This document shows, in pieces, positions 1,709 to 20,195 of a stretch of DNA of 32,804 nt. Every line of letters starts with the position of its first letter. The first letter of the stretch is position 1. This DNA comes from Candidatus Thiodiazotropha endolucinida (GTDB lineage Bacteria > Pseudomonadota > Gammaproteobacteria > Chromatiales > Chromatiaceae): the NCBI RefSeq assembly GCF_001715975.1, contig NZ_MARB01000034.1:1-32804 (forward strand), in the 5' to 3' direction. Position numbers and translations under genes: made by a program. The notes under the pieces were generated by a model. The model had not been told where the DNA came from, searched no databases, and saw only the letters and a list, made by a program, of their open reading frames with translations.

Positions 1709-4700
1709 TTAACGGAAGGAAAAGGATATTTGTCCAAAAACAGTGCGCTCTGAACTGAAGGAAGAAGGAGATGCCGAAGTCTCAACTGCCAAGCTGTCGT
1801 AGCTGTTTCTATCTTCGAAATCAAACTCTTCATCAAAGACATTTTTAACCCCTAACGAGATGAGTCCGTATTTCTCGGGTAAACGATAAGAAACTAGCAA
1901 ATCAGTTATCCAAAATCTATCTTCTGCATTTTGAGGGGGGTCATCAAAGGTGCTTTCCTGGAACACCCCTTTCTGGTTGATATACGTTGAAGTCACATTA
2001 ACAATATAACCAGATGGATGATAATAATTTACCCCTATCGGCAAGCGATGTGTCTCTAATTCAACAACACCATCTGGGGATATGCCACTGTATTCTGTAG
2101 AGCTGACATTGGTTGCTGAGTCCAATTTACTGAAGTCATATTCCAAGCTAAAGCTTAAATATCTCTGAGGTGACCAATTCAGCCAGGCATTTGCGCTGGA
2201 CTCATCAAATTCAACATCAATTACTGATTCGGTAAAGGTATTTATGTCAATTAACTCAAAAGGTGTTTCACCCTCACGGTAGAGCCCTCTAATACCTGCT
2301 GTAAGTGATGGTATGAGTTCTTGGGTAAAGCCTAAACCGTAATTCCAAGTATCTGTTTGCCGAAATTCATCATAGATCTGGTTGAAACCTGCTATGTGAG
2401 TCGGTTCAAGTGTTTGGTAAAAGGATGCAGTGATTGCACTCGAGTTTGTTCTGAAAGCTGCGGCGTAAATCTTTGACTTTTCAGTGACTGACCACTGAGC
2501 GCCCAGTTTTGGAAGTATTGTGGTTTCCTCCTCAGAAAATATTTCACTATTACTCCTAGCTGCAGAGAGACCAGTTGTAAGTTGCAGCATTTTTGAAGGC
2601 TGGTAAAAATAATAGCCATAAAGTCTAATTTGCTTTTCTGTAAAATTAACGCGGCTAGTACAATCAGGAAAAGGCAGCAGACAGGGAAGAGGTGAGAAAT
2701 CAAATGTTATGGCAGAGTTTTGATTGTCACGATTGTAGTTTATTCCGCCTATGAAACGATGCGAGACGCCATCGTGCAGGATTTGCAGATCGTGGATATT
2801 AAGTTTTGTATCTATTTTCCTGAGTGTGCCTGTGCCATCAGATGCTGATGTCTGCAGGGTGTCGTCAATCTCTGTATTTCTTGTGTTGAAGAGAACAAGT
2901 GTTTGAGGGGAAATGGCGTGGTTTACACCTATTCGGTAATTCATGATTTCGGTGTTTACTCGTAAGTTACTGTCAACAAGCAAGCTTGGCAGCAATCTCT
3001 GGGCAACATCCCCTTTATCCACTTCATCCTGACTGACTTCAATCTGGAATGAGGTAGCATTAGATATTGCTAATTGGGTGAATATGTTGTAGATATCCTG
3101 CTCATAATCCGCATTCGTTTTGAATCCTTCAGTTTCTGTATGATATTGCCCAACACTAAACGCGAAGCGATCATGCAAACCAGCGAGAATAGCATCGTTA
3201 GCCCATGTTTCTTCCTCAGCAACGGATGCATCAAATTGAAACGCCAAGCCATTGCGTGTAAAGAGTGGGTTGTATTCGTTGTATGAAAGATCACCGGGGC
3301 CATTTCCATCGAGCAAGCCCAAGTTTGAGTTGCTCAACTGAGGCTGTAATGGATCAAGATTAAGGGGTTGTGTCATCTTAGATTGCAACAGTTCACTCTG
3401 TCTGGCTGCATCAAGGTTGGTAAGACCCGAATAACTGTCAGCTAGTAATCGATGGGCAGAGTGGTTACTCGGATCCTGTGCCAGTGCATCGATCGCCTGG
3501 AGGCGCGCTTGTTGCTCAAAATTCAGATCGTTATATATTCTACCCAGAGAAGCACTGCGGGCAGCCTCATCCTTGTCTAAGAGTTGTCGCGAGCGGTATA
3601 CACCTCTGCTGTCATTCAGTTCAATAGCCCTCTTTTGTGCATGCAGGGCCTCAACTGGACGATTGCTGGACTGTAGAAGTATCGAATCATAGAACCAAGC
3701 CGTTGGGTCATAAGGGTCGATGTCCTTCGCTATAGCAAACTGCTGGGATGCCAAGCTATTGCGCTTTTCTTCGTAATAGGCCTTGCCCATATAGCTGCGA
3801 AGCAGTGCATTGTTTTGGTCTAGCAGTACGGAGGTTTCGATCCTCTCACGGCCAGATTCCAAAGCGCCTTGGCGAATCTCCAGTAAACCTAGACCGAGGT
3901 GGGGCAGGGGGGCGGCTGAATCGAGTGCGATGGCCTTTTCGAATGCCGTTTCTGCAGCGTTCAAATTGATATCCCGCAGAGAAGCGAACCCGAGAACGGT
4001 ATGTGCTAGTGAAAGCTCGGGGTTGATCGTGATTGCTTGATTGGCGGCTTCCCGGGCGGATCTCGTGTGACCTGTCATTAACCAGACTTCAGCAAGACGC
4101 GCTTGTGCCAAAGCGTTTTGCGGTGCGAGTTCCGCGGCCTTCTTGCTATTGGCCAGGGCGGCCGGAATGTCGAACATGGCCTGATTGACATAGGATTGCG
4201 CCATATAGGCTGCTGCTGACTGACTATCCTGCTGCAAAGCCTGTTTTGCCAGTTCGGTGGCCTCTTCCAGACGATTCTGCACAATTGCCTTGATTGCTTT
4301 TTGAGCCAGGGTATCGGCTTTACCTGGGGCCTCGGGTAGAGAAGGGTAGTAGAGTGCCCACGCAACAGCCTCGAAGGGTTTGACGACCTCAATTCGAACC
4401 GGCTGTTGATCGGCTGATGCCCGGGCGGCCTGATTTGCACTCAAATCGATTGAGCCGGCTTCATTTGCAGCTATCACAGTGCCTTCCAGAACCGTAACTT
4501 CGGTCCCCTGGTTTCGTATGCGAATCACAAACTCTGTGCCCTCAATGGATGCGTTCACATAGGGTGTTTTGACCTCCAGGCTCTTTGGTGTGCGGCTGAT
4601 GAAGTGCACAGCACCTCGAAGCAGGTCCAGGAGGGATGGCGTAGTCTTTCCGACCTGGGTAAATGTCAGCGCGGAATCTCGATCCAGACGCAGCAAGGTA

Positions 4701-4951
4701 TCGTTGGTCAGGCGAACGGCAGCCCTGCCATCGTGTAGTGTTCTTATGGCGTCACCGGCGCAGAATTGATCGTCAAGCACCACTTGTTGCCAGGTTTCCT
4801 GGCCGTCTCTTTTCTTTTCTGCACTGCCTTCCAGGGAGACCACTTGAGCCACATGGCTGCACTCGGCTGAAAAGAGTTGCTGCGAAAAGACCAGGATGAA
4901 AATGAGAAATAGAAATTTCGCGAGCATTGTGGCCTGTTTGCAATGCTGCAT
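1709..4951 (-). CDS. FecR domain + TPR repeats + outer-membrane beta-barrel fusion protein
   Basis: A 1080-residue exported protein with three joined modules. After a signal peptide (about residues 1-29, ending FSAEC) comes a FecR-type domain (about 35-170) with the pattern CAGDAIRTLHDGRAAVRLTND, then LEVKTPYVNASIEGTEFVIRI and VTVLEGTV. Residues ~205-500 are helical TPR repeats (for example AYMAQSYVNQAM, LAQARLAEVWLMTGH, AHTVLGFASLRDINL). The C-terminal ~500 residues are rich in alternating beta strands. They end with a TonB-receptor-like barrel signature, LGVKNVFDEEFDFEDRNSYD, and a final phenylalanine-containing strand FGQISFSFR. No plug domain or TonB box is seen. The start is supported by GGGGATCAAT before the ATG. 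The module combination suggests an outer-membrane port or sensor with a periplasmic TPR/FecR part; substrate unknown. Confidence 0.8.
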   Translation of the reverse strand: MQHCKQATMLAKFLFLIFILVFSQQLFSAECSHVAQVVSLEGSAEKKRDGQETWQQVVLDDQFCAGDAIRTLHDGRAAVRLTNDTLLRLDRDSALTFTQVGKTTPSLLDLLRGAVHFISRTPKSLEVKTPYVNASIEGTEFVIRIRNQGTEVTVLEGTVIAANEAGSIDLSANQAARASADQQPVRIEVVKPFEAVAWALYYPSLPEAPGKADTLAQKAIKAIVQNRLEEATELAKQALQQDSQSAAAYMAQSYVNQAMFDIPAALANSKKAAELAPQNALAQARLAEVWLMTGHTRSAREAANQAITINPELSLAHTVLGFASLRDINLNAAETAFEKAIALDSAAPLPHLGLGLLEIRQGALESGRERIETSVLLDQNNALLRSYMGKAYYEEKRNSLASQQFAIAKDIDPYDPTAWFYDSILLQSSNRPVEALHAQKRAIELNDSRGVYRSRQLLDKDEAARSASLGRIYNDLNFEQQARLQAIDALAQDPSNHSAHRLLADSYSGLTNLDAARQSELLQSKMTQPLNLDPLQPQLSNSNLGLLDGNGPGDLSYNEYNPLFTRNGLAFQFDASVAEEETWANDAILAGLHDRFAFSVGQYHTETEGFKTNADYEQDIYNIFTQLAISNATSFQIEVSQDEVDKGDVAQRLLPSLLVDSNLRVNTEIMNYRIGVNHAISPQTLVLFNTRNTEIDDTLQTSASDGTGTLRKIDTKLNIHDLQILHDGVSHRFIGGINYNRDNQNSAITFDFSPLPCLLPFPDCTSRVNFTEKQIRLYGYYFYQPSKMLQLTTGLSAARSNSEIFSEEETTILPKLGAQWSVTEKSKIYAAAFRTNSSAITASFYQTLEPTHIAGFNQIYDEFRQTDTWNYGLGFTQELIPSLTAGIRGLYREGETPFELIDINTFTESVIDVEFDESSANAWLNWSPQRYLSFSLEYDFSKLDSATNVSSTEYSGISPDGVVELETHRLPIGVNYYHPSGYIVNVTSTYINQKGVFQESTFDDPPQNAEDRFWITDLLVSYRLPEKYGLISLGVKNVFDEEFDFEDRNSYDSLAVETSASPSSFSSERTVFGQISFSFR

Positions 4952-5420
4952 ATTGATCCCCTGCTATCGTTTTTATAGATCCAAAATCTTACTGGAAATG
5001 TGTGCCTGGCAAGGCAACGAAAATTTCCATTACACGTAGCTATATAGTAACGAATATTTACAAAGATGCGAATTTATTTCATATCTGCCAAGTGTATTGG
5101 CTCTCTTTTTTAATGTAATTTATATCTTCCCTGCCTTAAGTCTGTCTCAACACGAAAAAATGCCCGATAGAGTCGATAAATAATGGCAGTAAGACTTAGA
5201 TTTATAAGGGTTTTGATTGTCGGGATATTTTACCCCCGTTTCTATTATATACATTAGAAATATACAGTAAGTGTTTAATTTAAAGATTGTAAATTAAATA
5301 TGGCTTGAGTTGTGCATTTATTTCATAAAAGCATCATGTTATGACAAGGGTGTTAAGAAAACTGACATTGTTGGTTTTTTGACAGTTGAGCATTAGGCCG
5401 GTTTTTCTAAAACGACAACA
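4952..5420. other. AT-rich gene-less stretch between divergent genes
   Basis: About 470 bases separate the divergent FecR-TPR-barrel and wall-hydrolase genes. The sequence is strongly AT-rich with many short TATAAT-like words, so both promoters probably lie here. I could not fix a -35/-10 pair with confidence, and I see no RNA gene, repeat or ORF with coding character. Confidence 0.5.
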
Positions 5421-6092
5421 ATGAAAAACAACAACCTTCAGCACAGTCAAGATGACAGCTATCCGCCTAAGGTAGTGTTGTTCTTACTCGCCATTATCAG
5501 CACTGGCAATGCGATGGCTGAAGAGATCATTGAACCAATGAACTTGGAAGATGATCTCCGGCACTGGCACGCTCTATACCAACCTCCCGAGGTATCAGAG
5601 ATTTCAAAAGAGATCGATTGTCTGGCACGAAATATCTATTTTGAAGCACGCAGCGAATCGGAACAGGGACAGCTCGCAGTGGGCCATGTTGTCATGAACC
5701 GGGTTGCGCATGAAGGCTATCCGGATTCAGTCTGCGCCGTCGTCAAGCAGGGAGGGGAGAAGAGACGTTACCGGTGTCAATTTTCCTGGTGGTGCGATGG
5801 ACGTTCTGATATACCCATGAATAAAAAAGCCTGGCAGCGGTCGCAGGATCTTGCCGAGGCGGTCTATAGAGGGCAATCCAAAGATCCGACTGATGGTGCG
5901 CTTTGGTATCATGCGGACTATGTGAATCCTGTATGGAGTACAGCGCTGGTATTGGGCAAGAAAATCGGACAACATCTTTTCTATTTGAGCAAAAAACGGC
6001 CTGTATATGCCATGAATTCAGCTACAAGGTTACAGTCGAAAATCGATCCAGTCAGCACTGTGGAACAGTCGCTTGGCTTTCCCGCACTTTAA
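5421..6092 (+). CDS. cell wall hydrolase, SleB family (Hydrolase_2)
   Basis: A 223-residue protein with a hydrophobic export segment (KVVLFLLAIISTGNAMAEE, about residues 17-36) followed by a SleB-type catalytic domain from about residue 50. The family pattern is clear: LARNIYFEARSESEQGQLAV, where the Glu in YFEAR is the usual catalytic residue, then HVVMNRV, PDSVCAVVKQ and CQFSWWCDG. The late segment GALWYHADYVNPVW is also typical. Members cleave peptidoglycan as lytic transglycosylase-like enzymes outside the cytoplasmic membrane. In a non-spore-former such proteins act in general wall turnover. The gene is transcribed alone and converges on the carbonic anhydrase gene, with a 12-base gap. 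Confidence 0.88.
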   Translation: MKNNNLQHSQDDSYPPKVVLFLLAIISTGNAMAEEIIEPMNLEDDLRHWHALYQPPEVSEISKEIDCLARNIYFEARSESEQGQLAVGHVVMNRVAHEGYPDSVCAVVKQGGEKRRYRCQFSWWCDGRSDIPMNKKAWQRSQDLAEAVYRGQSKDPTDGALWYHADYVNPVWSTALVLGKKIGQHLFYLSKKRPVYAMNSATRLQSKIDPVSTVEQSLGFPAL

Positions 6093-6104
6093 AGTATCGC
6101 CATC

Positions 6105-6668
6105 CTACTCCGGAATGGGTACTTCGATAAGTTTTCCTGTTTTACAGTTATAGATATAACCGTATATCGGTATGCCATCCGGTACCAATGGATGATTGCG
6201 TATTCTTTGCACATCCTCGACAACACTTTTTGCATTGTCCGAGATGGTCAGCCAATTGATGAACCTGCCTTCGATAGAACCGCTACCATCAGCGGAGTCA
6301 TGCCAACCATCGGCATCGACAGTTGCCGTTTTAAGACTGCTGGCGAGCAGGTCGCCCATGATTTCATTGGTGAATGTCAACATGCCGCAATCGGTGTGAT
6401 GGATAACAAACCACTCCTTGGTTCCAAGCAGCTTATAGGAAATGACAAGGGAACGGATTGCATCGTCGCTTGCTCTTCCTCCGGCATTGCGAATAACATG
6501 CGCGTCGCCTTCAGATAAACCGGCAAACTTTGCCGGGTCGAGTCTTGCATCCATACAGGTTAGCACAGCAAATCGGCGCCCCGGCGGCATGGGAAGCTCA
6601 CTTTTATCACCAAAACCCTTTGCATATTTTGCGTTTGCAGTTATAACCTCATCGCGAATTTTGCTCAT
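6105..6668 (-). CDS. beta-class carbonic anhydrase
   Basis: A 187-residue cytoplasmic enzyme interconverting CO2 and bicarbonate. The zinc site and catalytic dyad of the beta class are visible: CMDARLDP (Cys38 zinc ligand, Asp40-Arg42 dyad) and HHTDCGML (His90 and Cys93 ligands). The [17 protein letters not shown] segment between them is characteristic. The length matches the short bacterial beta-CA type. The start has a GGGGATAAGCC ribosome site. In a presumed autotroph the enzyme could feed carbon fixation, but there is no carboxysome or RuBisCO gene nearby, so that role is inference. Confidence 0.9.
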
Positions 6669-13243: not shown

Positions 13244-13435
13244 TTACCCTGCTGTTGACGCAAGTGCATGGTCTTCTCTCAGTACACAATATGTACTCAG
13301 AGAAGACCATGCCTTGCGCAGGTTCTGCTTAGCCTTACGGCGTTGTGCCTTGTTGGTTGTGTCGTGTACACCACCCTTGCGCAGCATCGGATGGTTATGC
13401 AATGGATTTCGTGGTTTGCGTGTTTTGTTTTTCAT
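13244..13435 (-). CDS. ArfA-like small basic protein (putative alternative ribosome-rescue factor)
   Basis: A 63-residue, strongly basic protein: NPLHNHPMLRKGGVHDTTNK then AQRRKAKQNLRKAW. The start at 13435 has AGGTAATTGAG just upstream; the frame extends further but without a site. The pattern P-(M/L)-(L/F)-R followed by a Lys/Arg-rich stretch and a conserved Trp resembles ArfA, which rescues ribosomes stalled on nonstop mRNA together with RF2. The strongest support is RNA structure. The last codons (about 40-59) fold into a long hairpin (13259-13318), as in E. coli arfA, where RNase III cleavage of a coding-region hairpin yields a nonstop mRNA and an active truncated protein. The gene lies 47 bases after rtcB. 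The homology is weak by eye, so the name is provisional. Confidence 0.5.
   Translation of the reverse strand: MKNKTRKPRNPLHNHPMLRKGGVHDTTNKAQRRKAKQNLRKAWSSLSTYCVLREDHALASTAG
13259..13318 (-). promoter_or_regulatory. long hairpin inside the 3' coding end of the ArfA-like gene
   Basis: The arms pair almost perfectly: an outer 6-bp stem CGCAAG/CTTGCG, a one-base bulge, a 14-bp stem GCATGGTCTTCTCT/AGAGAAGACCATGC, one C-C mismatch, an inner 6-bp stem AGTACA/TGTACT and the loop CAATA. It spans codons 40-59 and leaves the reading frame open. A stem of ~26 bp is a plausible RNase III substrate. There is no T-tract, so it is not a standard terminator. Confidence 0.8.
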
Positions 13436-13461
13436 CTCAATTACCTCTGTGTTGAAATAAA

Positions 13462-13481
13462 TGGGCCGGTGCCCCGGCCCA
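13462..13481 (-). promoter_or_regulatory. intercistronic hairpin between rtcB and the ArfA-like gene
   Basis: A perfect 8-bp inverted repeat TGGGCCGG/CCGGCCCA with a 4-base loop lies between the rtcB stop and the next ribosome site. It resembles the hairpin after the slipin gene and may stabilise or separate messages. Confidence 0.5.
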
Positions 13482-13482
13482 C

Positions 13483-14688
13483 TTATCCCTTGACGCACAG
13501 CACCTGTTTCAGGGTGTGCACCACTTCAACCAGATCGCTCTGGTTCGCCATTACCTGATCGATATCCTTGTAGGCGCCCGGGATTTCGTCGATGACTCCC
13601 TTGTCCTTACGGCATTCAACCCCCCGGGTCTGGGATTCGAGATCCGCCCGGTTGAACTGCCGCTTTGCCTTGGTGCGCGACATGCGACGCCCGGCACCGT
13701 GTGAGCAGGAGCAGAAGGACGCTTCACTGCCCTTGCCACGCACAATGTAGGATTTGGCGCCCATGGATCCGGGGATGATCCCCAATTCTCCTTCGCCGGC
13801 ACGAATCGCGCCTTTGCGGGTGACATAGACATCAGCACCGAAGTGATGCTCCCGCACAACATAGTTGTGGTGGCAGTTGATCGCCTCCTTGGTGATTGAA
13901 AAGGGCGGCAGCTGCAGAGCCAGGGCATCCAGGATCTGCTGCATCATTTCGCGGCGATTGATCATGGCGTAATCCTGGGCCCAGGCAACAGCTTCGACAT
14001 AGTCATCGAAGTGCTGCGCCCCCTCAGTGAAGTAGGCCAGGTCCCTGTCGGGCAGCCTTCCCAGCTGATCGCCCATATCCTTGCGCGCGAGATTGATGAA
14101 GTAGCGTCCGATGACATTGCCGATGCCGCGTGAACCGGAGTGCAGCATTACCCATACCGCCTCGTTTTCATCCAGACAAAGCTCGATGAAGTGATTCCCG
14201 CCGCCCAGGGATGCCAGCTGTCGAATCCAGATGTCGTAGGGACGCTTTCGCTGCATCTTGGCGATTGCAGGATGCTTGCCGAGAATCTGATCCAATCGCT
14301 TGGCCAATGGAACAATGGTTGAGCGCTTCACCGGATCACGGTCATGCATACCGAATCCAACCGGAATCGCCTGTTCGATACGATTACGCAGCATACGCAG
14401 GCTGTCAGGCAGTTCGGAGGCGGTCAGGGAGAGACGGATGGCGTTCATACCGCACCCGATATCCACTCCGACCGCTGCTGGCACGATGGCGCCTCTGGTG
14501 GGGATCACCGAGCCGACGGTGGCGCCTATACCCGCATGGACATCCGGCATCGCCGCAACATGGTGATGGATAAAGGGCATCTGGGATACGTTCACCAGCT
14601 GGTTTAGTGCCGTCGATTCGGTATCCCCGGTCCAGATATGGACCGGCACCCTGCCTTTGTTGAGAGTTTGTAGAATAGGCATTGTCAT
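13483..14688 (-). CDS. rtcB: RtcB family RNA ligase
   Basis: RtcB seals RNA ends carrying 2',3'-cyclic phosphate or 3'-phosphate to 5'-OH ends, using GTP and Mn2+, acting on cleaved tRNAs or other RNAs in the cytoplasm. At 401 residues it is the shorter RtcB type. Visible motifs are HHHVAAMPDVHAGIGATVGS, AVGVDIGCGMNAIRL (metal ligands Asp76 and Cys79), GGGNHFIEL, MLHSGSRGIGN, HHNYVVREHHFG and ELGIIPGSMGAKSYIVRGKG. The guanylylated histidine lies in CSHGAGRRMSR. The start is ATG 14688 or the ATG two codons later, which has better spacing from AAGGA. The gene follows the 315-residue unknown gene after 5 bases. No rtcA or rtcR is seen nearby. Confidence 0.95.
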   Translation of the reverse strand: MTMPILQTLNKGRVPVHIWTGDTESTALNQLVNVSQMPFIHHHVAAMPDVHAGIGATVGSVIPTRGAIVPAAVGVDIGCGMNAIRLSLTASELPDSLRMLRNRIEQAIPVGFGMHDRDPVKRSTIVPLAKRLDQILGKHPAIAKMQRKRPYDIWIRQLASLGGGNHFIELCLDENEAVWVMLHSGSRGIGNVIGRYFINLARKDMGDQLGRLPDRDLAYFTEGAQHFDDYVEAVAWAQDYAMINRREMMQQILDALALQLPPFSITKEAINCHHNYVVREHHFGADVYVTRKGAIRAGEGELGIIPGSMGAKSYIVRGKGSEASFCSCSHGAGRRMSRTKAKRQFNRADLESQTRGVECRKDKGVIDEIPGAYKDIDQVMANQSDLVEVVHTLKQVLCVKG

Positions 14689-14693
14689 ATTCC

Positions 14694-15641
14694 TTATAGT
14701 TCAAGTTTATAAAAAAGGGGTTCGATTTTCCCTCGACGCAAGCGTTTGATTGTGCGTCTGTCACTGAGCATGCCGGGGAGTTGTTCCGTCTGTTCGAAAC
14801 AGAACTGTCTCGGCAGAGCGCTGTACAGCGACTTGGGGGGCAGGTAGTGGCCGTTGATGCGTTTCAGGTAGTTCCCGACTTTCCAGCTGTGATACCAGAT
14901 CTGTTTCAATCCCAACTCTCTGTTGACGAAATCCACAGTGGCAGCGAGCATGGCCTGGCTCCACTCCTTGAGCAGCGGTTCCACGAACTCAAGATAACGA
15001 CGTGCAGATGCGGCGGTGGTTTTGAAATCGCCACAATCCATTACATGCTCGTCCCTGTCACACCTGTCGAGCCACTTATGCAGCCAGGCGGTATCTCTGA
15101 CCCAGTCACTTTGAACCTCTTCGATCAATACCTCATCTCTGTCGAGATCGATATCGAGGCGTGACCAGGCCAGAGTCTCCCGGTAATAACTGCGATCACC
15201 CCTCCCCAACACCGGATGTCCCCAATAGTTGAAGACACCATCCCGGGTAGGGTGGATCAGTTTCTGCAAAAGGCTGTCATGCTGGTGATTGAAATTGAGT
15301 CGCAGTACCAGGTTGACGCCTGGCCGCGATGTTTGCGCATAACGGTCTGATTTACTCCCCCACACACCTGCGGTGACCAGGTAGGTGGTGCCCGGCTCCT
15401 GCCAATAGCTGACTAACAGATCACTGTTTAAGCGTCCATTGCCACAGCTGCTTAGTAGAGCGGCGATAGAGGATTTGTTCAGCAGCCTCCCAAAGTTGGA
15501 TCCCTTAAGGGTTTGAATGGTCGCATGCCGCTTGACCGCAATCTGCAGCAGTTGCACTGCATAGTAGTCCCGGCAGTAGGGGTAGAGTGTTCTCTCCTTA
15601 GAAAAATAGGCAAACAACTCCTCTATTTCGTTCTGGTCCAT
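14694..15641 (-). CDS. unrecognised protein of the rtcB-slipin operon
   Basis: A 315-residue protein with no signal or membrane segment, between slipin and rtcB. I recognise no family. Notable segments are the N-terminal ERTLYPYCRDYYAVQLLQIA, a central FNYWGHPVLGRGDRSYYRET followed by LAWSRLDIDLDRDEVLIEEVQSDW, and a C-terminal aromatic/basic part IWYHSWKVGNYLKRINGHYLPP. Conserved-looking His, Asp, Glu and Arg residues in the centre (EVLIEEVQSDW) could form an active site; the composition fits a nucleic-acid-acting enzyme, but that is inference. GGAGAG precedes the ATG. The tight coupling (5 bases) to rtcB indicates a shared task. Confidence 0.75.
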   Translation of the reverse strand: MDQNEIEELFAYFSKERTLYPYCRDYYAVQLLQIAVKRHATIQTLKGSNFGRLLNKSSIAALLSSCGNGRLNSDLLVSYWQEPGTTYLVTAGVWGSKSDRYAQTSRPGVNLVLRLNFNHQHDSLLQKLIHPTRDGVFNYWGHPVLGRGDRSYYRETLAWSRLDIDLDRDEVLIEEVQSDWVRDTAWLHKWLDRCDRDEHVMDCGDFKTTAASARRYLEFVEPLLKEWSQAMLAATVDFVNRELGLKQIWYHSWKVGNYLKRINGHYLPPKSLYSALPRQFCFEQTEQLPGMLSDRRTIKRLRRGKIEPLFYKLEL

Positions 15642-15738
15642 GATTGCTCTCCTTCGTTGATTGGACGCAGGTGGGTTGATGGAAATGGGTTAAATGGATT
15701 ATTCGCATGGTTAACTCCTGGTCTATTTAGGTTGAATT

Positions 15739-15759
15739 GCCCGGCCCTCTGGGCCGGGC
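15739..15759 (-). promoter_or_regulatory. intercistronic hairpin after the slipin gene
   Basis: A perfect 9-bp stem GCCCGGCCC/GGGCCGGGC with a TCT loop (plus-strand sense) lies just after the slipin stop. No T-run follows on the minus strand, so it is more likely an mRNA stabiliser or processing site than a full terminator. Confidence 0.55.
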
Positions 15760-15767
15760 GGTTGGGG

Positions 15768-16910
15768 TTACACCGAGATCTTCACAGTGTCGTTGAGGAC
15801 GCCGTCGAGACCGCCGAAGACGGTCAGACGATCCACCTTGTCGGTCACCTTCTCCAGAGTCTCCAGCTCCTTGAGGCGCAACAGGGTGGGGTTCTCGTCC
15901 ATCAGCTTTGCAGTGTTCAGCAGCGAACGGGTCGCCGCGGTCTCCTCGCGCCGCTTGATGACATTGGCCTGTGCAGCCTTCTCGGCCTGCACCACCTGGT
16001 TGAGAATCTCCTTCATCTCACCGGGCAGGATCACATCCTTGAGACCGACACTGCAGAGCTCGAAGCCGTTCTCCGCGGCCTTGCCGGCAACCTTGTCGAA
16101 CACCTCCCGGTCGACCCGCTCCTTGTCCTCCAACAGCTTGTCGAGCTCGCGGGAGCCTACCGCCTGCCGCAGTGCGAATTGCAGTTCACGGTAGATCCAG
16201 TCGAGGGGCTGCTGCAGCCTGTTGCGCGCCTTTACCGGGTCCAGGATCTGGTACTGGGCTCCCAGGTTGAGACGCAGCGAGACCTTGTCACGGGAGAGAA
16301 TCTCCTGCCCCTGGACCTCCATCGCCTGGATACGGGTATCCAATTGCTCCACACTGACGTGTCGCTTCAGCGCCCAAAAGGCGTGAAAGCCCGGCTTCAG
16401 GGTCTGGCGCAACTCACCGTCGATCAACAACAGGCCGACATAGTGATCCATAACCTCGGCGGTCTGGATGTTGGGCTGCAGCTCTCGCGCCACTACACCA
16501 CCACGGGTACGAAACACCGCATCCACGAGGTCCTTGGGGACAACCAGACCGTTGCGCAGATCGATCCGCTCTACACGCAGGGTGTAGGGGAGTTTCCAAT
16601 AGACCCTGCGCTCACCCGGCGCCAACAGCTCGATGAACTTGTCGTCCCGATAGACAAGACCGATCTGGTTGTCGGCCATGTCCGCCAGTTCCAGGTAAGG
16701 GCTCAACAAATCGCCCGCCCCCTTCATCAGGATCTCGGTGTTCTTGTTGGCGCATACTGCCTGGCCCAGGTCGTGCAGTTCGATCCGTACATGGCCGAAT
16801 GGGTCGAAGTGGCGGTAGACACCCGGCTCCAGCACCTTGATCAGCTGACTGTCACGAAACAGAAAACCGCGCTCGTGCTGGGCCACAACGATGCGCTTGT
16901 ATGCAAACAT
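15768..16910 (-). CDS. slipin (SPFH / band 7 family) protein
   Basis: The protein has 380 residues from the ATG at 16910, which has AGGAG seven bases upstream; the longer open frame has no such site. The band-7/SPFH domain is in the second half (VSVEQLDTRIQAMEVQGQEILSRDKVSLRLNL to VGSRELDKLLEDKERVDREVF), followed by the typical helical segment LKDVILPGEMKEILNQVVQAEKAAQANVIKRREETAATRSLLNTA. No N-terminal membrane helix is present, unlike most slipins. The N-terminal half holds three similar units (about residues 10-36, 82-106 and 157-180) of the form hGLhhRDxxLhxxLxPGxhxxF. Slipins assemble into oligomers and recur beside rtcB in RNA-repair loci. The function here is unproven. Confidence 0.9.
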   Translation of the reverse strand: MFAYKRIVVAQHERGFLFRDSQLIKVLEPGVYRHFDPFGHVRIELHDLGQAVCANKNTEILMKGAGDLLSPYLELADMADNQIGLVYRDDKFIELLAPGERRVYWKLPYTLRVERIDLRNGLVVPKDLVDAVFRTRGGVVARELQPNIQTAEVMDHYVGLLLIDGELRQTLKPGFHAFWALKRHVSVEQLDTRIQAMEVQGQEILSRDKVSLRLNLGAQYQILDPVKARNRLQQPLDWIYRELQFALRQAVGSRELDKLLEDKERVDREVFDKVAGKAAENGFELCSVGLKDVILPGEMKEILNQVVQAEKAAQANVIKRREETAATRSLLNTAKLMDENPTLLRLKELETLEKVTDKVDRLTVFGGLDGVLNDTVKISV

Positions 16911-17235
16911 TGTTTTTCTCCTCAGTTTGTAAAAGTGATTGAAATTGCCTTTTCGAAGCGCACGATAAACCCAGCTAAACACGACATACTTAGTCGCCGG
17001 GTTAAATAATATGCACTTCGGAAAAGCGCGGCCCCACATCCGCAGCGCGGGCCCGGATGGGACGATCGGGTGGGTGAAATCGCGGTCGCTGCCACGACCC
17101 GTGCACTCCCTTGCCGGACCGTTTGGCGATGGCGATCTCACTGACCCGTCGCGCCATGTCGGGCACAGGCCCTGCGGGTGGTGCAGGTTTTTGTCCAAAG
17201 CACTCAGCGTTGAAACCTGCCGGGACGTTGCTTGG
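16911..17235. other. GC-rich leader between tRNA-like genes and slipin
   Basis: About 325 bases on the minus strand between the RNA genes and slipin. The open frame that runs through it continues the slipin frame but lacks coding character. Several short GC-rich inverted repeats occur (for example GGTCG/CGACC near 17083-17100 and CCTGC/GCAGG near 17170-17190), so a structured leader RNA is possible. I see no independent gene. Confidence 0.4.
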
Positions 17236-17248
17236 ATAGTGAGTCAGT

Positions 17249-17286
17249 GCGGAGTCGAACCGCGGGGTCGTAAACCCTTACCATCT
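17249..17286 (-). ncRNA. collapsed tRNA fragment (T-arm plus anticodon-like hairpin)
   Basis: On the minus strand a 3-bp hairpin GGG/CCC with the 7-base loop TTTACGA is followed at once by a T-arm, GCGG-TTCGACT-CCGC (17249-17263). The variable region and most of the D-arm are absent, and no matching 5' acceptor strand is found. It looks like a decayed or deliberately reduced tRNA directly downstream of the UUA tRNA-like gene. Confidence 0.45.
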
Positions 17287-17358
17287 AGGGATAGGAGGAG
17301 TCGAACCTCCGACAGATCGAGTTAAAGTCGATTGCTCTACCCACTGAGCTATATCCAG
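17286..17358 (-). tRNA. tRNA-like gene with anticodon UUA (would read ochre UAA)
   Basis: A full cloverleaf can be drawn on the minus strand. The D-arm is GCTC-AGTGGGTA-GAGC. The anticodon arm is ATCGA-CTTTAAC-TCGAT (perfect stem, seven-base loop, anticodon TTA). The variable loop is CTGTC and the T-arm is GGAGG-TTCGACT-CCTCC. Acceptor pairs 3-7 match (GGATA/TATCC) but pairs 1 and 2 do not, and no CCA is encoded. The anticodon corresponds to stop codon UAA. The overall sequence is closest in look to tRNA-Lys-type tRNAs, so it may derive from one. Whether it is charged, a decoy for nucleases or a pseudogene cannot be told. Confidence 0.65.
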
Positions 17359-17466
17359 TTGGAGTCTTCAGGAACATCTCGTGCGGTACACAGGGTTGCA
17401 GGGCAAGCTGTGCCGGTGGGTCATGCGGAGACCCAGCCGCTGTCACTCAAGTATTCAATGAGGACC
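17359..17466. other. spacer with an anticodon-arm-like hairpin
   Basis: This spacer on the minus strand holds a hairpin TGGGTC/GACCCA, extended by CGG/CCG past a bulge, with the 7-base loop TCCGCAT (about 17416-17445). It could be a structured part of the RNA transcript. No ORF is supported. Confidence 0.35.
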
Positions 17467-17502
17467 TGGTACATCCGTCAGGTATCGAACCTGAACGGAT
17501 GA
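17467..17502 (-). ncRNA. tRNA minihelix (acceptor stem + T-arm) ending in CCA
   Basis: On the minus strand a 6-bp acceptor-like stem CATCCG/CGGATG directly encloses a T-arm TCAGG-TTCGATA-CCTGA and ends T-ACCA, that is a discriminator A and encoded CCA. There is no D-arm or anticodon arm, so the fold is the top half of a tRNA, as in tRNA-like 3' ends of tmRNA, Y RNAs and viral RNAs. It begins six bases after the TGA that closes the restored SEC-C frame, so it could cap the 3' end of that message or be released by RNase P. Confidence 0.65.
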
Positions 17503-17507
17503 GTGAT

Positions 17508-17755
17508 TCATGGTCTGAAATAGTGGTCTCTGTTGGCACCGTCAAAGCGTTTGCTCTGCAGGCAGCAACGCTTAAAATCTGATACCAGAGCCGCAGGGAC
17601 AGGGATCGTTACGGCCCAGCTTTTCCGTCAGCTCTTTGTCACCGTGTACTACGCGATCACCACGCTTTACCTTTATTTCAGAGGGGTAACCCTTGCGCCG
17701 TTTGTTCATGGTTTCGAAAGGATGATTGATCCATCTTTTGCCTGTGCGTTTTCAT
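17508..17755 (-). pseudogene. SEC-C zinc-motif protein interrupted by two +1 frameshifts
   Basis: Removing one base from each of two short homopolymers gives an 81-residue protein. It begins [20 protein letters not shown] and ends with a textbook SEC-C motif [18 protein letters not shown], where the four Cys bind zinc. The start has a strong GGAGG six bases upstream (17762-17766). The first shift is in AAAA just after the ATG (17749-17752). The second is in TTTT (17574-17577), turning GGT ATC AGA TTT AAG into a premature TAA before the CC pair. As an alternative, translation could begin at the ATG at 17709 (MNKRRKG), leaving a single shift. SEC-C motifs occur in SecA and in small proteins that contact the ribosome or nucleic acid. 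Real decay, sequencing error and programmed +1 slippage at UUU-UAA are all possible. Confidence 0.7.
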
Positions 17756-17788
17756 CTTGAACCTCCGCTAAAGTGATTGGTTGAGGTT

Positions 17789-17865
17789 TGGTAGGGACGG
17801 TGAGATTCGAACTCACAACCAGCAGGGTCTAAGCCTGCCGCGTCTTCCAATTGCGCCACATCCCC
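17789..17865 (-). tRNA. tRNA with anticodon UAG and short variable loop, CCA encoded
   Basis: A well-formed cloverleaf. The acceptor is GGGGATG/CGTCCCT (two G-T pairs) and the D-arm GCGC...CGC has three pairs. The anticodon arm is GCAGG-CTTAGAC-CCTGC, giving anticodon TAG. The variable loop is the short TGGTT, the T-arm is GTGAG-TTCGAAT-CTCAC, and discriminator A is followed by encoded CCA. Anticodon UAG would read the Leu codon CUA, yet bacterial tRNA-Leu has a long variable arm, which this lacks. Its identity is therefore undetermined; it is the first RNA element of the island. Confidence 0.75.
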
Positions 17866-18108
17866 TTATAGATTGTTATGGGCGGCTTATTCAACCACCC
17901 GGTTTGGTCCGCCCCCCTATGGCAGGCTGACCGGTGCTTCGGGATCCCATCTCCTCCCCTGGCACTGCACTGCCGCGCTTGTCGAGACGACTCGAACAGC
18001 AGCACTACCTCTTGTCCCTGGTGAGGCTGGCAACACCATTCCCGGCCCGTAACCGAGAACAGGGGGACGAGGCTTGCTTGGTATCTGCCCCAAGCGGCCA
18101 AAATCGGG
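17866..18108. other. GC-rich stretch between boxA leader and first tRNA
   Basis: About 240 bases without a credible gene; an open frame of 90 codons crosses it on the minus strand but runs into the tRNA and has no coding character. Short palindromes (for example TCGAG/CTCGA near 17982-17995) suggest a structured leader RNA. Confidence 0.35.
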
Positions 18109-18133
18109 CCCTGTCCATGATCCGGACAGGGCA
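18109..18133 (-). promoter_or_regulatory. strong hairpin downstream of boxA
   Basis: A perfect 9-bp inverted repeat GCCCTGTCC/GGACAGGGC with a 7-base loop lies 17 bases after the boxA on the minus strand. There is no T-tract, so it is an RNA structural element rather than a typical terminator. Confidence 0.6.
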
Positions 18134-18149
18134 GTTTGTAGTTTCCAAA

Positions 18150-18162
18150 TTGTTAAAGAGCA
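18150..18162 (-). promoter_or_regulatory. rrn-type boxA antitermination element
   Basis: TGCTCTTTAACAA on the minus strand is identical to the core boxA of E. coli rRNA leaders, which loads NusB-NusE and suppresses Rho termination of untranslated RNA. It points towards the tRNA-like genes, fitting transcription of structured untranslated RNA. It could also be a relic of an rrn spacer. Confidence 0.65.
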
Positions 18163-18195
18163 TCCCGAGTTACCACCCGAGTTTTCCCGGGCAAT

Positions 18196-18233
18196 AAAAA
18201 ACCCCCGGGGTTTGCACCAACCGGGGGTTTTTT
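18196..18233. terminator. bidirectional Rho-independent terminator
   Basis: A 13-base inverted repeat AAAAAACCCCCGG ... CCGGGGGTTTTTT with a 12-base loop carries A and T tracts at both ends, so it can terminate in either direction. It lies upstream of boxA on the minus strand. Confidence 0.8.
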
Positions 18234-18235
18234 CC

Positions 18236-18265
18236 GGAAGGTGTCAGTTATTCATGACACCTTCC
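18236..18265. repeat. perfect 11-bp inverted repeat
   Basis: GGAAGGTGTCA and TGACACCTTCC flank an 8-base loop directly beside the terminator. It could be an operator for the divergent HTH gene or part of an attenuator; no T-tract follows. Confidence 0.55.
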
Positions 18266-18546
18266 TGCAATGCTCTGGAAAAGTGTCAGGTCACAGCGGC
18301 TTCGTCCTCGTTACCGAGCAAAAAGCCAGGCGCTTTTAGTTGTATCAACAGATACGCTGAACACAGCGACGCACAAGCAGGCCCACTCCGCAGGGCTGCT
18401 GATGTGTCGGTGTCGTATAAGCATGTTGAATTCATCGTCGGTTCCTGTTTCGGTTTTCCGGGAGAGTCCCGGTCATCCGGGGCTTTCCAAATCTTGGGGC
18501 GCAAGTATAATCGGCAGATCTCAAATTGCAATAGTATTTTTTGCAA
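18266..18546. other. upstream region of the phage-repressor-like gene
   Basis: About 280 bases without a supported gene. It probably holds the promoter of the HTH gene at 18547 and, on the other strand, the one for the RNA island, but no clear -35/-10 pair was found. Confidence 0.35.
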
Positions 18547-19173
18547 ATGACAAAATTAAATCCAAGCAGCAAATCGCGTAGCAAAGACCCCGTGGCGGTT
18601 AAGATCGGCAAGCGCATCGCCCAGGCGCGCCGGATGGCCGGCTTCAAGACCGCAAAGGCATTCCGAGACAAGCTGCCAAAGTGGCCGGAGAACAGACTCT
18701 CCTGGTACGAGGCGGGTTACTCGATGCCCCATCCCGGTCATCTGGAAATCATTGCCAGGATTACCGGCACATCGGCCTGCTGGATCATGTTCGGCCTTGG
18801 TCCAATACGCTCGGGAGAACGGGACCTGCAGGCAGTGAGGCACCAGAATCTGGTCTATCTGTTTCGAGAAGCGGAAGCAGGCAAAGCTGAAACAGTCAGT
18901 AGGTTTTTGTTGAGTATCAAGCTTGAAGCCAAGCAACTGGCCAGCTATATCGACAACCCTTTCAAACATATTGGAGAACGATTAGCACGTAGTATTGAAA
19001 AGGCTTGCGGAAGGCCTCGTAAGTGGCTTGACGAACAGCATATTGAATCCGATGGGCTTTGTGTCTCGTTTCCTGATGATTTACGAGAATTGATGACACT
19101 CTATTCAGAGATGGATGCGAAGGGCAGGCAAATACTAATCGAGCTGGCACAGACCATATTTAAACACTCCTGA
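18547..19173 (+). CDS. phage-repressor-like HTH protein
   Basis: A 208-residue DNA-binding protein with a Cro/CI-like helix-turn-helix at about residues 15-85 (IGKRIAQARRMAGFKTAKAFRDKL, then ENRLSWYEAGYSMPHPGHLEIIARITG, ACWIMFGLGP). The C-terminal half is not a LexA/CI protease domain; it carries helices (FKHIGERLARSIEKACGRPRKWLDE) that may be a second DNA- or protein-binding part. The TTG at 18541 two codons earlier is an alternative start; no Shine-Dalgarno site is evident. The gene is divergent from the RNA island and near two tail-tube genes, suggesting either a phage-derived regulator or a regulator of the island. Both are inference. Confidence 0.75.
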   Translation: MTKLNPSSKSRSKDPVAVKIGKRIAQARRMAGFKTAKAFRDKLPKWPENRLSWYEAGYSMPHPGHLEIIARITGTSACWIMFGLGPIRSGERDLQAVRHQNLVYLFREAEAGKAETVSRFLLSIKLEAKQLASYIDNPFKHIGERLARSIEKACGRPRKWLDEQHIESDGLCVSFPDDLRELMTLYSEMDAKGRQILIELAQTIFKHS

Positions 19174-19268: not shown

Positions 19269-19718
19269 TCATTCCAGTATCAACCCTTCATGCACAATCT
19301 CGATAGTCTCAATGGCAACATCGTTCGAGCTGGCATTAAGATCACCCATTGAGTACTTTGATACCCAGGCATTACGCAGTTTCCAAGTAAATGCAGGTTG
19401 TTGTTCATCATTCAGCAGATGGATAGTCACATTGCGTCGACTGCCTGTGCTGGATTGTGCGCTTTCGGTAATCCATTCGAATAAATCGAGAGTACCGATC
19501 AAGCCGCGCTTTAAGGTAACAGGGCCATATTTTGTCAACCCAGGTAACTTTACCGGACTTTCAGTGCGGTCATTACCTGCACGGTACTCAATGACCTGGA
19601 TTTCCATTGAGAGGCCGCTTACCTCACTGAAGCCTGCCCTGGCATCCTGCGGGTCGTCGCCACCAATCGAGACCAGGAAGTTAAAGGCACCATAGGGTGT
19701 TTCTGACTGAATGGCCAT
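19269..19718 (-). CDS. phage tail tube protein (T4 gp19-like)
   Basis: A 149-residue tube protein of the contractile-tail family. Recognisable segments: PYGAFNFLVSIGGDDPQDARAGFSEVSGLSMEIQVIEYRAGND, LPGLTKYGPVTLKRGLIG, LFEWI and the terminal VAIETIEIVHEGLIL. Such proteins stack into the inner tube of contractile phages and extracellular injection systems. GGAGAAGCC precedes the ATG. The upstream gene on the same strand is a second, divergent member, 12 bases away. No sheath, baseplate, spike or ATPase gene occurs in the window. Confidence 0.88.
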   Translation of the reverse strand: MAIQSETPYGAFNFLVSIGGDDPQDARAGFSEVSGLSMEIQVIEYRAGNDRTESPVKLPGLTKYGPVTLKRGLIGTLDLFEWITESAQSSTGSRRNVTIHLLNDEQQPAFTWKLRNAWVSKYSMGDLNASSNDVAIETIEIVHEGLILE

Positions 19719-19730
19719 GGGGCTTCTCCT

Positions 19731-20195
19731 TTATTTGAGATCCGAATCTTGTAACCAGCATAAAGAACGGTAGCAAAGAGTTAGTGTTTCATAGGCCGGA
19801 CCTGCATTCATGGCATCCAAATTCGGCCCCCGCCATGCTTCGATCCAGCAGTTGTATAGCCGCCAGCAATTGACCGGCTTATCTGTATGCTTGTCCAGCA
19901 TACAAATTGTCATTGTCCGAAGGTCTTTTGCACGACAAAGATTGGCTTTGTGCCAATCGAAAAAGAAGTGATCACTATCTATTACCCTGCGCAGCTCAAT
20001 TCGATTGGTTTTGATATCAAGACACAGAAAACCAATCAATTTCATCAGAGGCGAGGGACGGGCAGTTGCATGTCTGGTGGAGCTTATGCCAGAGATACTC
20101 GAGAAAGCTACGTCTCTGCGTGAGCAATCAGATTTGGAGCTGTCGATAGTTACCGTGAATCGGTTGTTGAGTAACGGCAATTGATTATCAGGCAT
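19731..20195 (-). CDS. divergent tail tube-like protein
   Basis: A 154-residue protein that I read as a diverged tail tube protein. It opens LLNNRFTVTIDSS, has a FSSISGIS segment where the neighbour has FSEVSGLS, and ends AYETLTLCYRSLCWLQDSD, matching the terminal strand pattern of the neighbour. The middle (IELRRVIDSDHFFFDWHKAN) aligns with the VTLKRGLIGTLDLFEWI region. It contains eight cysteines, unusual for this family. It forms a two-gene unit with the gp19-like gene. Homology is judged by eye and needs profile confirmation. Confidence 0.65.
   Translation of the reverse strand: MPDNQLPLLNNRFTVTIDSSKSDCSRRDVAFSSISGISSTRHATARPSPLMKLIGFLCLDIKTNRIELRRVIDSDHFFFDWHKANLCRAKDLRTMTICMLDKHTDKPVNCWRLYNCWIEAWRGPNLDAMNAGPAYETLTLCYRSLCWLQDSDLK

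Follow-up and report, generated by a model that had tools for sequence, protein, structure and literature searches.

The window, a 32,804-nt contig stretch from Candidatus Thiodiazotropha endolucinida, a clam symbiont, contains what looks like an inducible RNA-repair operon, with all of its elements on the minus strand: a boxA, a Leu(UAG)-like tRNA, a SEC-C ORF, a T-arm minihelix, a cloverleaf with a UUA anticodon, a collapsed element, slipin, P315, and RtcB, in that order (Table 1). A preliminary description of the locus had listed these elements, and each was confirmed in the sequence; its label of an ArfA-like gene is the exception.

Table 1. Features of the operon and of the divergent regulator in the window
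Feature	Position	Strand	Evidence or remark
XRE-like regulator HTH210, ATG at 18547	18541..19173	+	Divergent from operon; HTH_31/HTH_3 matches under cut-off
Candidate promoter TTGCAA-16-TATACT	18504..18531	-	Motif search and leader alignment
Attenuator-like hairpin GAAGGTGTCA..TGACACCTTC and GC-rich stem with T-run, 5' of boxA	18195..18264	-	Alignment of 9 leaders
rrn-type boxA TGCTCTTTAACA	18151..18162	-	Sequence
Structured leader RNA	17905..18099	-	Pairing prediction over 8 loci
Class-I tRNA-Leu(UAG)-like RNA	17789..17865	-	ARAGORN, Rfam RF00005
SEC-C motif protein, 45 aa	17572..17709	-	Pfam SEC-C 2.9e-6
T-arm minihelix, ACCA end	17467..17501	-	Sequence; T-arm TCAGG-TTCGATA-CCTGA
Slipin-proximal tRNA-like cloverleaf, UUA anticodon	17286..17358	-	ARAGORN, Rfam RF00005
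Collapsed second element (mini-elbow): GGTAA, short hairpin, T-arm	17241..17285	-	T-arm CGCGGTTCGACTCCGCA, 4/5 pairs
Repeat-SPFH protein annotated slipin	15768..16910	-	Band_7 9.5e-29
P315, 315-aa protein	14694..15641	-	21-member alignment A3
RtcB RNA ligase	13483..14688	-	Pfam RtcB 7.9e-129
Small basic ORF, RN..PLLRKGGVH motif	13244..13435	-	A6 family; strong hairpin inside 3' end

The regulator HTH210 is conserved beside the operon, being present in sister loci and 41 to 47% identical in L071, L075, L125, L024, and L025. A motif similar to the candidate promoter occurs in the aligned sister leaders (nine leaders); the count of promoter-like sites in the region is no proof alone, since it was 4 against 3.1 in shuffled sequences. 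Terminator-like sites numbered 8 against 5.0 in shuffles, and a terminator-type search also picked up the stem with a T-run at 18213 to 18199. The boxA TGCTCTTTAACA, which we take to be the rrn motif, recurs exactly (12/12) in L022 and L021, and its core, CTCTTTAACAAT, was found in L017 and L019. Loci with and without slipin keep the structured leader RNA, for which 59 pairs were predicted over eight loci, 6 of them changed on both sides (-72.75 kcal/mol; covariation share, -0.84). A canonical rtc operon would have RtcR adjoining; no RtcR match was obtained around the window slipin, and 14 of 51 slipin loci have one.

RtcB matched PF01139 as a full-length domain over residues 30 to 401. For P315, neither Pfam nor NCBIfam yielded a family at E values up to 1, and there was no convincing PDB match. 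The ORF at 13435 to 13244 resembles ArfA in being short and basic and in carrying a strong hairpin (z = -9.3) within its 3' end, ArfA having a hairpin toward the end of its coding sequence as well. Searches with it and its 11 homologues, at E values up to 10, returned neither an ArfA model from Pfam or NCBIfam nor an ArfA chain from the PDB. The ArfA label is thus unsupported, the 3' hairpin being the one feature that speaks for it.

Both the Leu-like RNA (58.7 bits) and the UUA cloverleaf (59.1 bits) were reported by RF00005 and called by ARAGORN. The former has a short variable region, all seven acceptor pairs, and an encoded CCA. The cloverleaf, which is the slipin-proximal one, has five of seven acceptor pairs, no CCA, and a 7-nt anticodon loop with U33 (CTTTAAC). 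Its anticodon at the equivalent position in the four slipin-bearing sister loci is UUA, UUU, UUU, and CAU, and because it varies among orthologues, the ochre-reading function first proposed for this RNA is unsupported. Model R1 matched the collapsed element at 22.3 bits only (17249 to 17283). Searches of the window and of 11 related loci at gathering scores reported RF00005 as the sole Rfam model, and hence no YrlA.

Homologous slipin loci do not lack such RNAs, so the preliminary description withstands the refutation it had itself proposed, a consistent absence of the RNA elements from homologous loci. Of 51 slipin genes, taken from many Pseudomonadota, 49 are preceded on their coding strand by a T-arm module, compared with 0/51 on the opposite strand and 22/510 shuffled sequences; the two loci with no T-arm in the stretch examined are L129 and L178, the latter covered for about 100 nt. 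Tandem pairs, sought at a pitch of 40 to 85 nt and found at 46 to 77 nt, are present at 42 of the 51 loci (minus strand, 0/51; shuffles, 0/1,020). ARAGORN at its default setting called a plus-strand tRNA-like RNA in 37 of 50 slipin leaders and overlooked the other 13, with no calls on the minus strand (0/50) or in shuffles (0/250). A covariance model was made for the collapsed element from its counterparts in other genera; in held-out relatives it gave five strong matches, all of them before a slipin gene, 369 to 376 nt 5' of it. Over 43 loci the 3' end of the tRNA-like RNA is 182 to 834 nt (median, 365) from the slipin start codon, and where RtcB comes first (L124, L126, L130, L134, and L138) the RNA is still ahead of slipin. 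The leaders range from those of E. coli and Citrobacter, with only one T-arm of four pairs, to L075, with 20 tRNAs between regulator and slipin, and L130, with 14 (relaxed setting); several array tRNAs in related loci have CCA and full stems. As far as genome sequences can tell, the pairing of tRNA-like RNA and slipin recurs across the Pseudomonadota, strand specific and structurally conserved, and we hold its linkage and structure to be highly probable.

The slipin-proximal element keeps the elbow of a tRNA. In 36 deduplicated elements, the T stem and anticodon-stem positions 1 to 4 are paired in 35 to 36, the latter with three to four pair types, and GG is present in every D loop, giving a cloverleaf with a D/T elbow. 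On the same 36 elements, gathered by a finder that is itself biased to paired stems, 18 of 21 pairs exceeded all 500 re-deals. The second element, compared over eight loci from other genera, has double-sided changes in 11 of 13 pairs, including 9/9 outside the T-arm. Set against 27 ordinary tRNAs from the same genome, slipin-proximal elements seldom have a full 7-bp acceptor stem (7/43 versus 26/27) or an encoded CCA (5/43 versus 27/27), and they differ in the presence of A34 (10/43 versus 0/27). A 7-nt anticodon loop with U33 is present, as in the window element, in 22/43 versus 27/27; eight of their loops are not 7 nt long, and U33 occurs in 22 of the 35 that are. GNRA-type caps replace the anticodon loop in L158, L162, L170 (in its upstream partner), and L179, and in L075, L130, and L164, loci with arrays, the slipin-proximal element is likewise deviant. 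Judged by acceptor stem, CCA, and A34, it has lost features expected of a decoding tRNA, and the drift of its anticodons implies that these RNAs would neither decode nor act simply as anticodon bait. The preliminary reading of the locus as an RNA-repair neighborhood with tRNA mimics was correct, with a slipin-proximal mimic that is without decoding marks.

The gene with which these mimics associate is slipin. None of 21 RtcB loci without slipin had an upstream tRNA (ARAGORN default), whereas 15 of the 51 slipin loci bear the RNA with no RtcB in the stretch examined, some being cut by contig ends, as do five further slipin loci. Within the genus, the leaders of the slipin-less L018, L020, and L021 hold no recognizable tRNA-like RNA, and the Leu-like tRNA has decayed in L015 and L016, which also lack slipin and whose P315 and RtcB are 96 to 98% identical to those of the window. 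L024 and L025 have tRNA-Tyr(GTA) 5' of P315 and no slipin in the stretch examined; slipin with tRNA-like RNAs is found elsewhere in their genomes (L202 and L205). Because slipin-less RtcB loci lack the RNA and RtcB-less slipin loci keep it, we assign the mimics to slipin; by this distribution they go with slipin and not with RtcB or a rescue factor. For the 15 loci with no RtcB in the stretch examined, a "repair" role would be guilt by association.

The slipin family has Band_7 in all 12 members, and thus an SPFH domain, with a PH stomatin as its best PDB chain (6.7e-29). A hydrophobic membrane anchor is typical of slipins and stomatins; no membrane segment was found in these 12 members, whose top 19-residue hydropathy is 0.73 to 1.44. 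Three internal repeats match one another (R1-R2, R1-R3, and R2-R3; hhalign, 96 to 97%; E, 1.9e-9 to 4.4e-11), compared with 1.4% at most for 12 control segment pairs, and probably form beta-sheets. The predicted protein is soluble looking, with a layout like that of the major vault protein, and a cage is plausible. The major vault protein, as portrayed in PMC13347060 and PMC12624060, is an SPFH protein that is not tied to a membrane; beta-sheet repeats come before its SPFH domain, and small RNAs associate with it. The two share repeats before SPFH and the lack of a membrane anchor, and the bacterial protein would likewise have a small RNA; they differ in that two repeats lie ahead of the SPFH start in the bacterial protein versus nine in the vault protein, and no bacterial particle is known. 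Searches at E values up to 10 returned no vault chain from the PDB and no vault family from Pfam.

The best explanation, to which we give an even chance, is that tandem tRNA-like RNA and repeat-SPFH slipin form an RNA-protein pair that is the central novelty of the operon. Somewhat more tentatively, the RNA may act in trans as a tRNA mimic. It would be transcribed together with slipin and trimmed out by tRNA-processing enzymes, a step for which RNase P and RNase Z are not certain because most slipin-proximal elements have eroded acceptor ends. Its elbow and T-arms would hold it in or on a slipin ring or cage, where damaged tRNA to be repaired by RtcB and, where present, RlaP could find in it a docking scaffold, a competitor, or a placeholder. 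In an unlikely extension, slipin would be a mini-vault protein of bacteria. This soluble repeat-SPFH protein would form cages, have a tRNA-like RNA of the vault type to itself, and enclose either damaged tRNAs or stalled translation complexes for repair by RtcB/RlaP.

Strict placement before slipin suits a cis-acting leader just as well as a trans partner. The tandem element in the 5' leader of the slipin mRNA might be cut by tRNA-processing or tRNA-cleaving enzymes and so set the slipin level, slipin output then reporting tRNA damage or load on the processing machinery. We regard this as a serious, if less probable, alternative: wherever found, the element is on the same strand and 5' of slipin, even where slipin is not the first gene, and the window operon is further equipped with boxA and an attenuator-like stem. 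A two-element structure with an intact elbow exceeds the needs of a cleavage site, however; the Leu-like and Lys-like elements farther upstream, which have a full acceptor stem and a CCA, resemble released RNAs; and RtcR already senses damage in loci such as L100, L158, and L163, yet the RNA is kept there.

It is improbable that the window RNAs are relics of an operon that formerly held backup tRNAs against destruction of the host's own. Real arrays do exist in L075 and L130, and in Anabaena a stress-induced tRNA operon shares its repressor with rtcB and a slipin gene, by the account in PMC10272220. Against this, the slipin-proximal element is deviant even within arrays, its stems covary rather than decay, and the Leu-like RNA decays upon slipin loss. 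The poorest candidate is a bait or sensor offering cleavable anticodon loops to anticodon nucleases, with RtcB resealing them; RtcB is a neighbor, and some elements have UUU or CAU anticodons, which are nuclease targets. A competitive-inhibitor role has been proposed for Salmonella YrlA (PMC7790460). The bait idea is weakened by the GNRA-type caps and by a 7-nt U33 loop in only 22 of 43 elements, as well as by anticodons that vary between sister loci and by RNAs that occur with no RtcB in the stretch examined.

To our knowledge, Y RNAs with Ro60 are the only tRNA-mimicking RNAs of RNA-repair operons; no TROVE/Ro60 family match was found among the nine window proteins scanned. In topology the window RNAs differ from YrlA, being linear and in tandem, with the acceptor open. 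The rsr-yrlBA-rtcBA operon of Salmonella and Deinococcus, RtcR controlled in Salmonella, is as presented in PMC7790460 an RNA-repair operon that likewise combines RtcB with a noncoding RNA containing a tRNA-like domain; there the partner of YrlA is Ro60/Rsr, versus an SPFH protein here. Table 1 of PMC10272220 places the trn tRNA operon, rtcB, slipin alr0740, and the HNH gene all8564 in the Anabaena TrcR regulon, the same parts list of tRNAs, RtcB, slipin, and HNH, but spread over several loci under one repressor and, in that account, with no description of a slipin-adjacent tRNA mimic. Pseudomonas aeruginosa PaFlo8 is an SPFH gene within an rtcA/rtcB/rtcR locus (PMC13086221), and there no RNA element is described, "tRNA" having no occurrence in the main text of that paper.

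The recurrence of the tRNA-like RNA ahead of slipin in many related bacteria suggests that slipin has an RNA partner not described so far. If this is true, Y RNAs would be joined by a second kind of tRNA-like RNA that differs in structure, pairs with SPFH proteins across the phylum, is reduced in E. coli, and makes up a new RNA family; some odd genomic "tRNAs" with impossible anticodons would be explained, and there would be a handle on the role of SPFH proteins in RNA repair. Were the mini-vault reading also true, the combination of an SPFH cage and a tRNA-like RNA would be of ancient origin and in principle shared with eukaryotic vaults, and the parallel would make an old puzzle, the purpose of vaults and vault RNAs, testable in bacteria.

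The window is an entire contig of a 4.49-Mb genome, to which the nearest named organisms are Candidatus Thiodiazotropha and further symbionts of bivalves. The order of elements in its RNA-repair operon is given in the table. The hairpin and stem that precede boxA resemble an attenuator with antitermination after it. The leader RNA that follows boxA is retained in sister loci of the same genus with and without slipin, closes at its 3' end with a GGTCCGC..GCGGACC hairpin, and had no match in an Rfam search at gathering scores. In one sister locus (L021), which is also without slipin, this conserved leader RNA is interrupted by an insertion of about 260 nt with complementary ends (MITE-like, judged by eye). 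Two neighboring T4 gp19-like genes, of the tail-tube or contractile-injection-system kind, adjoin the operon.

Features of the operon and its flanks in the window
Feature	Position	Strand	Remarks
T4 gp19-like genes (two)	19269-20195	-	
HTH210, XRE-like gene	start 18541		divergent from operon
Promoter-like site	18531-18504	-	
Hairpin with T-run, intrinsic-terminator-like	18264-18195	-	between promoter-like site and boxA; 9 leaders aligned
boxA	18162-18151	-	
Structured leader RNA	18099-17905	-	195 nt, highly conserved
Leu(UAG)-like tRNA	17865-17789	-	class I
SEC-C ORF		-	45 aa; between Leu(UAG)-like tRNA and minihelix
T-arm minihelix	17501-17467	-	
UUA cloverleaf	17358-17286	-	
Collapsed T-arm element (mini-elbow)	17285-17241	-	
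slipin		-	first gene after collapsed element
P315 (315-aa protein)	14694-15641	-	after slipin
RtcB (RNA ligase)		-	after P315
Small basic ORF		-	after RtcB
Near-perfect long hairpin	13244-13330	-	inside 3' end of small basic ORF; z -9.3

The tRNA-like elements accompany slipin, which encodes an SPFH protein, across the Pseudomonadota. A slipin profile search (E up to 1e-60) matched 20 of 369 class genomes and 23 of 398 phylum genomes; these matches, loci from named records, and the sister loci made up 51 slipin loci, some ending at contig edges, and a 52nd (L070), with a slipin fragment only, was left out. In the 1.3 kb preceding slipin, ARAGORN at default settings found a tRNA-like RNA on the same strand as the gene at 37 of 50 loci (one locus had too little sequence), on the other strand at none, and in 0/250 shuffles; with -ps90 the figures were 43/50, 2/50, and 4/250. 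A T-arm pattern preceded slipin at 49/51 loci (other strand, 0/51; shuffles, 22/510), and two T-arms spaced 40 to 85 nt apart (46 to 77 nt observed) did so at 42/51 (other strand, 0/51; shuffles, 0/1,020). Among 21 RtcB loci without slipin, four of which offer less than 500 nt, none had a default ARAGORN match upstream of RtcB and one had a T-arm. RtcB lay within the stretch examined at 32 of the 51 slipin loci, and 15 of the 51, some cut by contig ends, bore the RNA without RtcB in that stretch. The gene for RtcR, the rtc operon regulator, was present at 14/51; a strict either/or of RtcR and tRNA-like RNA was rejected, nine of the 51 loci having both RtcR and an ARAGORN match.

Closely related loci serve as a natural experiment. 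Of 40 genomes searched, 13 encode P315, the window's own among them, and all 13 belong to one genus; the other 12 P315 loci form the sister set, and these and their congeners are not independent of each other. Slipin and tRNA-like RNAs co-occur in the window, L017, L019, and L022. Slipin is absent from L015, L016, L018, L020, and L021, and the leaders of these five loci gave neither an ARAGORN match at -ps90 nor a T-arm. The two loci closest to the window, L015 and L016 (P315 96 to 97% and RtcB about 98% identical), retain a remnant Leu-like tRNA with a broken T stem, a pattern that fits slipin-dependent constraint on the tRNA-like RNA. An exception to the strict rule is provided by L024 and L025, which have one tRNA-Tyr upstream of P315 and no slipin in the stretch examined. 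Anticodons vary across the four slipin-bearing loci, being UAG, CAG, CAG, and UAG in the first tRNA-like element and UUA, UUU, UUU, and CAU in the second, and because of this variation we rejected the preliminary description of the UUA cloverleaf as an ochre-reading tRNA.

The slipin-proximal cloverleaf retains its elbow. One overlapping alternative ARAGORN call each in the window and in L022 was set aside before its features were counted. Among 36 deduplicated slipin-proximal elements, in which pairing percentages lean upward because ARAGORN itself favors paired stems, T-stem pairs were formed in 35 to 36, anticodon-stem pairs 1 to 4 likewise in 35 to 36 (with three to four pair types), and D-stem pairs in 32 to 35, and all 36 had GG in the D loop. 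Acceptor pairing decays outward (position 5, 34/36; position 6, 33/36; position 1, 17/36). When the 3' letters were re-dealt 500 times, 18 of the 21 pairs scored higher than in every re-deal, the exceptions being T1 (invariant), T2 (nearly invariant), and A1 (weak). We compared features needed for decoding with those of 27 ordinary tRNAs from the window's genome, out of 42 others that Rfam found there. A complete acceptor was found in 7/43 slipin-proximal elements versus 26/27 ordinary tRNAs, CCA in 5/43 versus 27/27, a 7-nt anticodon loop with U33 in 22/43 versus 27/27, and A34 in 10/43 versus 0/27; in some loci a GNRA-type cap replaces the anticodon loop. In the upstream tandem partner a full acceptor (8/15) and CCA (5/15) were commoner than in the slipin-proximal element, and a 7-nt loop was present in only 6/15.

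The mini-elbow next to the cloverleaf, aligned from eight loci, has four parts: hairpin, GGTAA-like stretch, tetraloop hairpin, and T-arm. Double-sided changes occurred in 11/13 pairs; the T-arm had served to pick the eight sequences, and the pairs outside it, which are free of that choice, covaried in 9/9 cases. R1, a covariance model built from these eight loci, all outside the window's genus, returned from 40 relatives five matches at 48 to 60 bits that had not been used for training, all 369 to 376 nt upstream of a slipin gene that was 56 to 57% identical to that of the window. These matches come from five Thiodiazotropha genomes (L201 to L205) with a second slipin lineage, preceded by Lys(CUU)-, Leu(CAG)-, and Asn- or Ile-type tRNA-like RNAs and then a mini-elbow, with neither RtcB nor P315 in the stretch examined. 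Among 274 class genomes the five top matches (62 to 81 bits) were training loci. The sixth, at 37 bits, came from L129, about 1.3 kb ahead of its slipin; no other slipin locus with ample sequence had failed the T-arm scan. At low scores R1 is unspecific: with an E cutoff of 0.01 it matched 95/274 class genomes, and with a cutoff of 0.1 it matched 37/40 relatives; because four weak matches inspected (31 to 35 bits) were Ser or Leu tRNAs, only matches above about 45 bits were taken as evidence. The window's own element, being shorter, scores only 22.3 bits and is assigned by its position, its T-arm, and the GGTAA motif.

Several neighboring genes recur. A nucleotidyltransferase in L099 is RlaP (Pfam PF10127, 1.5e-96), and homologues follow slipin or RtcB in other loci. 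In Escherichia coli, megablast with the slipin-RlaP segment (L099 9995-11919) gave at least 80% query coverage in 1,617 of 5,426 complete genomes; the strain examined has a single, remnant-like, four-pair T-arm 192 nt upstream of slipin. An HNH gene occurs in L071, L075, L124, L130, L133, L164, and L168. True tRNA arrays are found in L130 (14 tRNAs) and L075 (20 tRNAs); the latter (2452-6412) lies between an XRE-like gene and slipin-P315-RtcB, and an HNH endonuclease is located inside it, as is the small basic ORF. The small basic ORF, found again beside P315 or slipin in several families, had been called ArfA-like, a family assignment that did not hold in searches of Pfam, NCBIfam, and PDB; the hairpin in its end may represent nonstop-type control. 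In the class sample, P315 is conserved across 11 families, its own being one. It had no match in plasmid and phage collections or PDB, no convincing Pfam family, and a weak match to PHROG 2591 in 7 of the 21 members of its family alignment (best, 0.015), through an E-E-Q-D-W stretch. PADLOC gave no convincing anti-phage defense match for the window's proteins, its only matches being the HTH259 protein to HTH models (E, 0.01 to 0.035) and the SEC-C ORF to the SEC-C motif (best, 1.2e-4).

The slipin protein itself has no hydrophobic segment in 12 members (maximum 19-residue hydropathy, 0.73 to 1.44). Three of its regions are mutually repeat-related (hhalign, 96 to 97%; E, 1.9e-9 to 4.4e-11), a value that did not exceed 1.4% in 12 control pairs, and the third runs into the SPFH domain. 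The major vault protein, as outlined in the cited accounts (PMC13347060, PMC12624060), shares this layout of repeats and SPFH domain without a membrane anchor. Because sequence searches of PDB chains and Pfam families found no vault homology, we regard the likeness as a parallel, not as membership.

Our comparative sequence analysis demonstrates linkage of the RNAs to slipin, their strand, their structure, and dependence on slipin; it also shows that the slipin-proximal element has lost features expected of a decoding tRNA. We found no description of tRNA-like RNAs beside slipin in the open-licence full-text literature searched; an earlier mention may exist elsewhere. Rfam searches at gathering scores, covering the window and 11 related loci, did not report YrlA, for which a competitive-inhibitor role has been suggested in Salmonella (PMC7790460). 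The main rival explanation is that the RNA is a cis leader controlling slipin. We favor the model in which the RNA would be an elbow-shaped tRNA mimic, acting in trans as a partner of a slipin assembly. The operon may serve to repair or sequester damaged tRNA. In Anabaena, genes for a slipin and an HNH protein rise in concert with rtcB and a tRNA operon once the repressor TrcR is removed (PMC10272220), an independent hint that these parts may work together.
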